Below the pieces are notes generated by a model. The model ran no database searches, was not told the DNA's origin, and saw only the letters and a program-made list of their open reading frames with translations. From Deltaproteobacteria bacterium RBG_13_61_14 (GTDB taxonomy: Bacteria; RBG-13-61-14): 6,973 bases of DNA. The position numbers were made by a program, and so were the translations under genes. Shown one piece after another: positions 3,295-6,417 of this stretch (position 1 is its first letter; each line of letters starts with the position of its first letter). The DNA lies in the NCBI GenBank assembly GCA_001797815.1, contig MGQK01000117.1:13288-20260 (forward strand), written 5' to 3'.

Positions 3295-4053
3295 CTAAGA
3301 GCGGGCCGATCTTCGAGCCGGCTGGCGCTTCGCGGGCCGGCCCATCGCCCACAGACGCTTGATCTCTTTTTCGTGGAGAAAGCGGAAGCGGCCGGGCAGG
3401 AGGCTGCCGAGCGCGAGCGGGCCCAGCGCCACCCGGTGCAGCTTGAGCACCGGATGCCCCACGGCCTCGGCCATGCGCCGGACCTGGCGGTGGCGGCCTT
3501 CGGTCAGGGTGATCTCGATCCAGGCATGGCGCGGGCCTTTGCGGAGCAACCGCACTTTGGCCGGCAAAGTCGGCTTGCCCTCGAGCGGGACTCCGCGCGC
3601 CAGTTTCTGCAGGGCGGCCGGGTCCGGGATTCCTTCCACCTTGGCCTGGTAGGTGCGCGGCACCTGGGAAGAAGGATGGGTGAGGCGGTGGGTGAGCTCG
3701 CCGTCGTTGGTGAGGAGCAGGAGGCCCGAGGTGTCCCAGTCCAGCCGGCCGACCGGATAGACCCGCTCCTTCATCCCATGGATCAAGTCCAACACCGTGG
3801 GCCGGCCTTCGGGATCATGGGTGGTGGTCACGTAACCCGCGGGCTTGTGGAGCAGGAGGTAGCTCCGGGGCGCGTCGGCCACGATCAGCCTGCCCGAAAC
3901 CCGGATCTGGTCCCGCGCCGGGTCGGCCTTGCTCCCCAGCTCGGCCACCACCCGGCCGTTCACCCGCACCTCGCCGGCCAGGATTAACGCTTCGGCCTTG
4001 CGGCGCGAGGCCACTCCCGCCCGGGCGATGATTTTCTGTAACCGCTCTTCCAT
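3295..4053 (-). CDS. rluB: Ribosomal large subunit pseudouridine synthase B
   Basis: A 252-residue RsuA/RluB/RluE-family enzyme that isomerises uridine to pseudouridine in rRNA. In E. coli RluB acts on U2605 of 23S rRNA. An N-terminal S4 RNA-binding domain (MEERLQKIIARAGVASRRKA through GEVRVNG, 1-33) is followed by LLLHKPAGYVTT (66-77) and the catalytic loop VGRLDWDTSGLLLLTNDG (101-118), where Asp105 is the expected nucleophile. EGRHRQVRRM is the conserved late motif of the family. The C-terminus ends in a short Arg-rich tail. GRLDWDTSGLLLLTNDGEL fits RluB better than RsuA (16S), so the symbol is given with moderate confidence. ATG at 4053 matches usual family starts, but AGGAG lies only one base before it. 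An in-frame TTG at 4071 with AAGAGAG upstream would add six residues. It probably leads an operon with the adenine methyltransferase 32 nt downstream. Confidence 0.93.
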   Translation of the reverse strand: MEERLQKIIARAGVASRRKAEALILAGEVRVNGRVVAELGSKADPARDQIRVSGRLIVADAPRSYLLLHKPAGYVTTTHDPEGRPTVLDLIHGMKERVYPVGRLDWDTSGLLLLTNDGELTHRLTHPSSQVPRTYQAKVEGIPDPAALQKLARGVPLEGKPTLPAKVRLLRKGPRHAWIEITLTEGRHRQVRRMAEAVGHPVLKLHRVALGPLALGSLLPGRFRFLHEKEIKRLWAMGRPAKRQPARRSARS

Positions 4054-4088
4054 GCTCCTCTGCCGGCGCAAAAAACTCTCTTGCGCTT

Positions 4089-4117: not shown

Positions 4118-4149
4118 GGGCGAATGAGAATTTGGGGTCAGGTCTCAAT

Positions 4150-4278
4150 GGTCTGTTGCCCAAATCAAAATTCTTTTTGGCCTCGTTTTTCCATCATCGT
4201 AAAATCGCGGGGTTACCTGGTAGGGGCGACCGGCCGGTCGTCCCTACAAACGGCCATTCGGCATTTAGGCAACAGACC
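4150..4278. mobile_element. MITE-like element with 16-bp terminal inverted repeats (129 bp)
   Basis: The left end, GGTCTGTTGCCCAAAT (4150-4165), is the reverse complement of the right end, ATTTAGGCAACAGACC (4263-4278), at 15 of 16 positions. Outside the arms, TCAAT (4145-4149) also pairs with ATTGA (4285-4289) across a 6-base bulge. The inside holds a second palindrome (4220-4247) and no coding capacity. Further short pairing (GGCC, TTT) inside the arms suggests a long imperfect palindrome whose left arm carries extra sequence. No clear target-site duplication is seen. A REP-like motif (TTTGGGGTCAGGTCTCAAT, 4131-4149) abuts the left end. It lies between the transporter and rluB genes and may be a non-autonomous element or a composite of REP units. 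Confidence 0.6.
4220..4247. repeat. 28-bp inner palindrome (GTAGGGGCGACC type)
   Basis: GTAGGGGCGACC (4220-4231) faces GGTCGTCCCTAC (4236-4247) around a self-complementary GGCC centre, with a single G/T mismatch between the arms. The GTAGGGGCGACCGGCC core is one I associate with a dispersed intergenic repeat in many environmental bacterial genomes; that association is from memory. Here it forms the middle of the larger inverted-repeat element at 4150-4278. Confidence 0.8.
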
Positions 4279-4294
4279 CTTTACATTGAACATT

Positions 4295-4341
4295 GGGTTT
4301 TGCCCTTCCGCGAGAGCAGTCGCGGCTACGCTGCAAAACCC
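4295..4341. repeat. Nested hairpin downstream of the transporter gene
   Basis: Outer arms GGGTTTTGC (4295-4303) and GCAAAACCC (4333-4341) pair perfectly. Within them, CCGCGA (4308-4313) and TCGCGG (4320-4325) form a second perfect stem with a 6-base loop. The structure lies 12 bases beyond the transporter stop in its direction of transcription, so it could stall polymerase or protect the 3' end. There is no T-tract after the stem on either strand, so it is not a textbook intrinsic terminator. Confidence 0.6.
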
Positions 4342-4352
4342 GAGTCAGGCCG

Positions 4353-5237
4353 TCAACCTGTTTCTAGCTCTTCGGCCAGTTGTTCGCCGGAGAAGCGGGC
4401 GAGCAGCACGGTGCCGAAAAGGATGGCGGCGAGGCCGGCGATGCGGAGCTCGCGGTGGAGGAGTTCTTGGGGGAAGGCCTCGCCCAGGGCATAGACGCCG
4501 AGGACGATGGTGATGAGGCGGGCGCAGAAGTCGGAGACGGCGGTGACCAGGATGGCGCGGCCGTGCTGGTAGCCGCGGGAGAGGAGGAAGAAGCCGGTGA
4601 GGTAGAAGAGGACGAGGGCGGGTGCGATCAGGCCGAAGGCGGAGAGGTAGGCGCGGGAGTGGAGCTGGATGAGGACGCCCTTGGTGAAGACGTCGCCCAG
4701 GCCCAGGAGCACACCGGCGATGATGCCGAACACCACCACCCAGTCAAAGCCGACGTTGAAGAACTTGCGGCCGGCATAGACCAGGAGGCACAGCCCGCAG
4801 GCGACGGCGACGGCGAGGACGAGCAGATGCGGGGTGAGGACGCTGGGTGTGGAGTTTTGGATCGGCTCGCTCAGGCCCAGGGCGACGATGCCGGCGGTGA
4901 CGATGATCACCCCCAGCCATTCCCGGGCTTTCAGGCGGTGGTCAAGAAAGAGGATGGAGAAGACGGCGAGGATGACGAAGCCGGAGCCCTGGATGGCGCG
5001 GGCCAGCGAGATGGGAGTGTAGTTGAGGGCGAAGGCGAAGAGGCCCCAGCCCAGGCCGGAGATAATCAGCCCGCCCATCCATTTCCTGGAGAAGACAAAG
5101 GCCCGGAGGGTGGAGAGCAGGTTGGGCCCGAGCGCGATGGGGGGAAGCTTGTCCGCGGCCTGCTTTTGCAGGACCACGCCCACGTCCCAGCAAATGGCGC
5201 AGAGGGTGATGAACAGGATGGAGATCCAGATAGACAC
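4353..5237 (-). CDS. DMT-superfamily (EamA/NIPA-like) membrane transporter
   Basis: A 294-residue very hydrophobic protein with roughly eight to ten predicted membrane helices, the first at residues 3-22 and others at about 53-72, 76-98 and 104-123. The drug/metabolite transporter superfamily usually has ten helices in two EamA repeats. The segment ISLARAIQGSGFVILAVFSILFLDHRLKAREWLG, with a helix followed by the charged 'D-R-K-E-W-G' loop, is typical of an EamA repeat, and the ending 'R-x-x-G-x-x-x-I-L-x-G' repeats this pattern. The early LQKQAADKLP after helix 1 resembles NIPA-type magnesium transporters, but the substrate cannot be assigned. GTG at 5237 is preferred because AAGGAAG lies about ten bases before it and helix 1 begins at once; a TTG at 5264 would add nine residues but lacks a ribosome binding site. 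It is divergent from the peptidase gene, with about 120 nt of shared upstream DNA. The short C-terminal tail is acidic. Confidence 0.85.
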   Translation of the reverse strand: MSIWISILFITLCAICWDVGVVLQKQAADKLPPIALGPNLLSTLRAFVFSRKWMGGLIISGLGWGLFAFALNYTPISLARAIQGSGFVILAVFSILFLDHRLKAREWLGVIIVTAGIVALGLSEPIQNSTPSVLTPHLLVLAVAVACGLCLLVYAGRKFFNVGFDWVVVFGIIAGVLLGLGDVFTKGVLIQLHSRAYLSAFGLIAPALVLFYLTGFFLLSRGYQHGRAILVTAVSDFCARLITIVLGVYALGEAFPQELLHRELRIAGLAAILFGTVLLARFSGEQLAEELETG

Positions 5238-5265
5238 CGCTTGCTTCTTCCTTCCCCGCTCCAAT

Positions 5266-6293: not shown

Positions 6294-6338
6294 GGGGAGC
6301 GAACCTTCGGACCAGGTGTCAGGGTGGCAGGGGCCGGT

Positions 6339-6417
6339 GATTTTGGATTTCGGATTTTAGATTTTGGATTTGAATCTTTCCGTTAATCCAAAATCCAAAA
6401 TTTAAAATCGAAAATTC
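6339..6417. repeat. AT-rich inverted repeat between convergent genes, possible bidirectional terminator
   Basis: This AT-rich block contrasts sharply with the GC-rich surroundings. The left part is a degenerate run of ATTTTGGATTT units. The arms at 6353-6371 and 6391-6409 are reverse complements at 18 of 19 positions, with a 19-base spacer. It lies between the stops of the plus-strand peptidase (6293) and the minus-strand right-edge gene (6481), where a bidirectional terminator is expected, and the stem is rich in T on both strands. GAACCG-type short repeats follow at 6425-6476. Similar 'GATTTTGGATTT' tracts are seen as intergenic repeats in other genomes (from memory). Confidence 0.65.

Follow-up and report, generated by a model that had tools for sequence, protein, structure and literature searches.

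A probable IS1182-derived MITE inserted at a fixed site in a RAYT-type repeat and carrying a GTAG REP-like unit

Results

A probable MITE nested with two other repeats

We analysed an element in a 6,973-nucleotide stretch of bacterial DNA, referred to here as the window. It is very probably a MITE, that is, a gene-less derivative of an IS1182 insertion sequence that arose by internal deletion, was mobilised in trans by the DDE transposase of the IS, occupies a fixed site in a RAYT/TIRYT repeat tagged by GGGGTCAG, and contains a GTAG REP-like unit. The locus is three nested layers of selfish DNA: a RAYT-type repeat, an IS1182 MITE within it, and a GTAG repeat within the MITE. The features are listed in Table 1.

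Table 1. Coordinates of the nested repeats in the window
Feature	Position	Strand	Basis
Left part of target repeat, GGGGTCAG + GTC (TIRtron/RAYT-end repeat)	4134–4144	+	GGGGTCAGNNNTTNA found 111 times in the genome (control 0); motif also bounds RAYT genes
Left target-site duplication TCAA, degenerate here	4145–4148	+	4-bp duplication identical in 6/11 own-genome elements
Whole element, probable IS1182-type MITE, 131 bp	4149–4279	+	Family alignment; end pairs of the 11 copies resolved in the source genome
Left terminal inverted repeat TGGTCTGTTGCCCAAAT, consensus GGGCCTGTTGCCCAAAT	4149–4165	+	Repeat search; end search of genome
28-bp palindrome GTAGGGGCGACCGGCCGGTCGTCCCTAC, GTAG-tagged REP-like unit within MITE	4220–4247	.	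11 genome copies; solitary elsewhere
Right terminal inverted repeat, reverse complement GGGTCTGTTGCCTAAAT	4263–4279	-	Repeat search; end search of genome
Right target-site duplication TTTA, degenerate here	4280–4283	+	Flank comparison of own-genome elements
Remainder of interrupted target repeat, CATTGAACATT	4284–4294	+	2/12 mismatches to empty repeat GGGGTCAGAACTTTACATTAAACATT

An earlier note on this DNA described a 129-bp element with 16-bp inverted ends and a 28-bp inner palindrome. Direct reading bears out the ends, with positions 4150–4165 and 4263–4278 complementary at 15 of 16 positions; a repeat search extends the pairing to 19 nt (89% complementary) and recovers the palindrome at 94%. 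The extent itself needs a small correction, as comparison with the family shifts both boundaries outward by one base each to give 131 bp and 17-bp ends, the first base of the element being degenerate in the window copy (T instead of G).

The element strand folds strongly (z of -6.0 as RNA and -5.4 as DNA, with none of 200 shuffles as good) and lies between genes for an EamA-type transporter (4353–5264, minus strand) and an RluB-type pseudouridine synthase (3295–4071, minus strand). The fold and the intergenic location would suit a selected structured element such as an RNA hairpin, terminator or regulator, which we nonetheless regard as very unlikely given that copies are scattered at unrelated places with unrelated interiors, that the element matches no Rfam family, and that no terminator-like site was found at it. 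At this locus the element most probably amounts to neutral DNA between genes.

The window contains other inverted sequences: a further hairpin, GGGTTTTGC...GCAAAACCC, at 4295–4341, immediately after the interrupted repeat; intergenic AT-rich inverted repeats, ATTTTGGATTT and AAATCCAAAAT, at 6335–6416; and a long palindrome, AATACTAGGGACAGGCCCCGGTATT...AATACCGGGGCCTGTCCCTAGTATT, at 162–220, belonging to one class with the GGGGACAG repeat that flanks a 228-aa RAYT gene (L082) in the same genome.

Copies in the same genome and in other phyla

The source genome (4.74 Mb in 132 contigs) contains full-length relatives of the element at 82–91% identity. The end GGGCCTGTTGCCCAAAT occurs in six exact copies and about 32 with at most two mismatches; hits with three mismatches were left out of the count, since a reversed control is high there too. 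The earlier note had proposed that the pairing would be mere chance if the ends had no second copy, and the further copies that it suggested looking for are abundant. Chance pairing of short repeats has next to no probability, being refuted by the folding shuffles, the copy number and the end pairs found across phyla.

Eleven two-ended elements of 107–198 bp were resolved in this genome, and these have several unrelated interiors. The interior class of the window copy is represented on contigs C117, C7, C94, C113 and C79; in a 140-bp class C53 and C89 are 99% identical, a 162-bp class is 96% identical, and there are other classes besides. The elements are short, non-coding, multi-copy and bounded by terminal inverted repeats, as MITEs are, and the suggestion of a non-autonomous element was right.

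Perfect end pairs (121–137 bp), with interiors unlike that of the window copy, are present in six further genomes, MAGs named as Lentisphaerales, deltaproteobacterium, Syntrophus, Verrucomicrobia, Kiritimatiellae and Opitutae. A second genome from the window's order, G002, is apparently the same as the deltaproteobacterium MAG, since elements L069 and L197 are identical. In nearly all of the foreign end pairs GGGGTCA(G/A) or a near form lies 7 nt from one end. Phage and plasmid sequences gave no matches to the element; exact 17-mer hits in viral contigs were taken as chance, these being single ends in seemingly ordinary coding regions.

Ends shared with IS1182 transposase genes

Transposase fragments of the IS1182 family lie behind the same ends, answering the earlier call for a transposase with matching ends. 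In the source genome, an IS1182 N-terminus of 102 aa on C15 is located 111 nt inside a one-mismatch end, and this relic matches NF033551 with an E value of 1.4e-13, under the whole-protein cut-off since it is truncated. A C-terminal relic beside an end on C91 was assigned solely by pairwise alignment to L170, and an HMM scan of this fragment gave no match. L170, in G002, is a perfect end adjoining an IS1182 C-terminus; in the same genome transposase starts follow ends located at the repeat, at the same 7-nt site (L100, L123, L204). An Opitutae genome has a perfect end together with an N-terminus (L176) that shares 61% identity with an intact IS1182 protein over 65 aa. Ends the same as those of an IS1182 transposase gene are seen at L039, L170 and L176.

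In a 270-bp sequence, L193, the 5' end of the IS (as in L210) runs directly into codons for the C-terminus of the transposase. L193 is an internal-deletion derivative of the IS and an intermediate toward the MITE. IS1182 transposase matches were found in five of the six foreign genomes with end pairs and in five of the six with the composite motif described below, not all of them carrying these ends.

We recovered no intact, autonomous copy of an IS that has exactly these ends, the transposase pieces being truncated or at contig breaks; the nearest intact transposase (L099) is 56% identical at the N-terminus, has diverged ends and is not located at the repeat. PF01609 transposases of the source genome (IS1634- and IS4-like, L092–L094) were considered as a source and rejected, having no matching ends. 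The element resembles the IS1182 family in its transposase assignment by NCBIfam NF033551 and in having 16–17-bp ends and a 4-bp duplication, as does ISPse1, an experimentally captured IS1182 element with 16/16-bp ends and a 4-bp duplication (PMC3281130).

A fixed insertion site in a TIRtron-type repeat

The element interrupts a third repeat, at 4134–4148 and 4280–4294, which lies outside the coordinates of the earlier note. It begins with GGGGTCAG (4134–4141), and MITE ends are placed 7 nt from this motif. The composite motif GGGGTCAGN6A+TIR occurs at 39 sites in six genomes, and its reversed control has none in 386 genomes. Right flanks match the repeat arm with at most 2/12 mismatches in four of the 11 elements, compared with 0/385 control windows. 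Four copies in the source genome (C20, C53, C89 and C107) are off the exact site.

Empty sites and target duplications had also been named as things to look for, and both were found. The repeat is dispersed through the source genome in about 110 copies, solo or paired, of which about 100 lack a MITE, and these paralogous empty repeats are recreated when the flanks of an element are joined: at C94 the joined flanks read GGGGTCAGTGC-CTGA-CTTATGACTTA, compared with GGGGTCAGTGC-TTGA-CTTATGACTTA in an empty repeat beside a RAYT gene. There is thus a fixed insertion point within a repeat family of which empty members are present, as with ISs that target REPs. The 4-bp duplication is imperfect in the window copy, differing at two of four bases. 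If the insertion reading is true, an allele of the target repeat free of the MITE would read GGGGTCAGGTC-YTNA-CATTGAACATT. We rejected stem-loop replacement of the kind attributed to IS1272, as simple insertion with duplication accounts for most flanks; L196 and L202, where the repeat arms are symmetric and a duplication is lacking, could fit replacement.

TIRtrons are defined by the motif GGGGWSAS (PMC3733652). GGGGTCAG fits this motif and bounds, in inverted orientation, most of the ~320-aa Y1 transposase genes of the source genome, which has 19 Y1 transposase hits (RAYT/TIRYT), unusually many. The ~320-aa Y1 proteins tested against NCBIfam match REP-associated tyrosine transposases (NF047646); one match exceeds the cut-off and another falls just short of it. 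The flanking repeat accordingly has the make-up of a TIRtron repeat, with inverted copies around Y1 genes and both solo and paired occurrences, and differs from those described (PMC3733652) in being the host repeat that a MITE interrupts. At RAYT loci L074–L088 the flanking repeats share GGGGTCAG and have copy-specific arms of short direct repeats, for example TTCACATTTCACATT.

An alternative explanation is that a RAYT/TIRYT enzyme, acting on single strands by HUH chemistry, moves the GGGGTCAG repeat and the hairpin together as one REP-like mobile element. Both the 19 Y1 genes, most ~320-aa ones being bounded by GGGGTCAG, and the constant 7-nt spacing are in keeping with this. We consider it improbable, though less so than a structured element, because an IS1182 DDE element at the same site has identical ends, 4-bp duplications are present, so many of the repeats lack a MITE, and no end of the MITE type lies within ~1.5 kb of any RAYT gene.

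The inner GTAG palindrome

The palindrome GTAGGGGCGACCGGCCGGTCGCCCCTAC is present in 11 copies in the source genome, and seven of these are flanked on both sides by long inverted repeats, scoring 13 or more, as against 0/400 random sites, where the maximum is 11. The ends around the seven nested copies belong to four unrelated families, namely the present MITE, GGGTGTGCGACAAATTTGGT, GTAACCCTTCAG and CTATCTCAAAACC; an eighth copy, on C113, is within a MITE whose end is degraded. Independent nesting events number about four, because copies in one end family share one ancestor.

Two loci of the source genome, L028 (C126) and L032 (C3), represent another MITE family, whose 20-bp ends are GGGTGTGCGACAAATTTGGT and which carries the same palindrome, and L024 (C31) and L025 (C100) are inverted-repeat elements with ends GTAACCCTTCAG and CTATCTCAAAACC and the palindrome at the core. 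In distant genomes (L016, L017) a GTAGGGGCGACCCGGCGGGTCGCCCCTAC palindrome is apparently within a Y1 transposase-like coding region, its reverse strand resembling MPNHFHGIIVIVD.

In other organisms the GTAG palindrome is solitary and dispersed in many unrelated contigs. Among 65 sites in viral contigs that belong to the wider palindrome family, nesting in inverted repeats is not enriched (2/65, compared with 4/432 random sites), and a general preference of the palindrome for inverted-repeat elements is therefore unsupported by these sites. It is possible, although we hold this only tentatively and think it rather doubtful, that in this lineage the palindrome preferentially lands in, or is carried by, the cores of unrelated MITEs, which, with the IS1182 MITE landing on RAYT repeats, would amount to reciprocal HUH/DDE nesting.

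The 28-mer is a GTAG-led hairpin in many dispersed copies, as are GTAG-tagged REPs (PMC3733652), and differs from these in that no matching RAYT was identified and that most copies in the source genome are inside inverted-repeat elements. Among the 19 Y1 genes none is a cognate RAYT gene flanked by the palindrome, the nearest being a GCCCCTAC half-site by a 155-aa Y1 gene. We therefore call the inner palindrome REP-like and a candidate GTAG REP. The proposal of a composite REP unit was partly right, in so far as a GTAG-type REP sits within the MITE.

Discussion

In the most probable mechanism, an IS1182 transposase would bind the 17-bp ends of the IS or of its deleted derivatives. The sequences themselves show the family, the ends, the duplication and the target position, while catalysis and action in trans are presumed from established DDE transposition. 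The enzyme would cut the GGGGTCAG repeat at YTNA with a 4-bp stagger and join the ends there, duplicating YTNA and placing IS and MITE alike between this tetranucleotide and the next arm of the GGGGTCAG-NNN-YTNA repeat. The repeat itself would be supplied by RAYT/TIRYT activity, as its position around those genes suggests. The GTAG REP was probably already in the ancestor of the window subfamily and would have multiplied along with the MITE, whose interior is a mosaic of other palindromic repeats.

IS1272, of the IS1182 family, uses inverted repeats as targets, with stem-loop replacement reported (PMC5678879). The present element shares with IS1272 and some other IS1182 members a described preference for palindromic or hairpin targets; it differs in being non-autonomous and in using one fixed position in a RAYT repeat, with YTNA duplicated and no stem-loop replacement. 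ISs that target REPs are listed from the IS3, IS110, IS4, IS256 and IS5 families (PMC1525189). Site-specific insertion into dispersed extragenic repeats is common to these and the present case; unlike them, IS1182 is absent from the families listed, the target is the GGGGTCAG TIRtron repeat, and what is inserted is in most cases a MITE.

Each of the layers is of a known kind; the combination, and specifically the site-specific pairing of IS1182 with a TIRtron, seems to be undescribed. A literature search did not find this pairing, which ISfinder entries and further papers may still hold, and a search by oligonucleotide found no description of these ends.

With this finding IS1182 joins the families that use extragenic palindromic repeats as targets, and its target is unusually exact (7 nt after GGGGTCAG, YTNA duplicated) and common to several phyla. 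By landing on the end of a repeat that belongs to another transposon, the IS would have a site that is safe, plentiful and transferable, and recognition of a RAYT repeat by a DDE transposase, whether through its sequence, its hairpin or its single-stranded state, thereby becomes directly testable.
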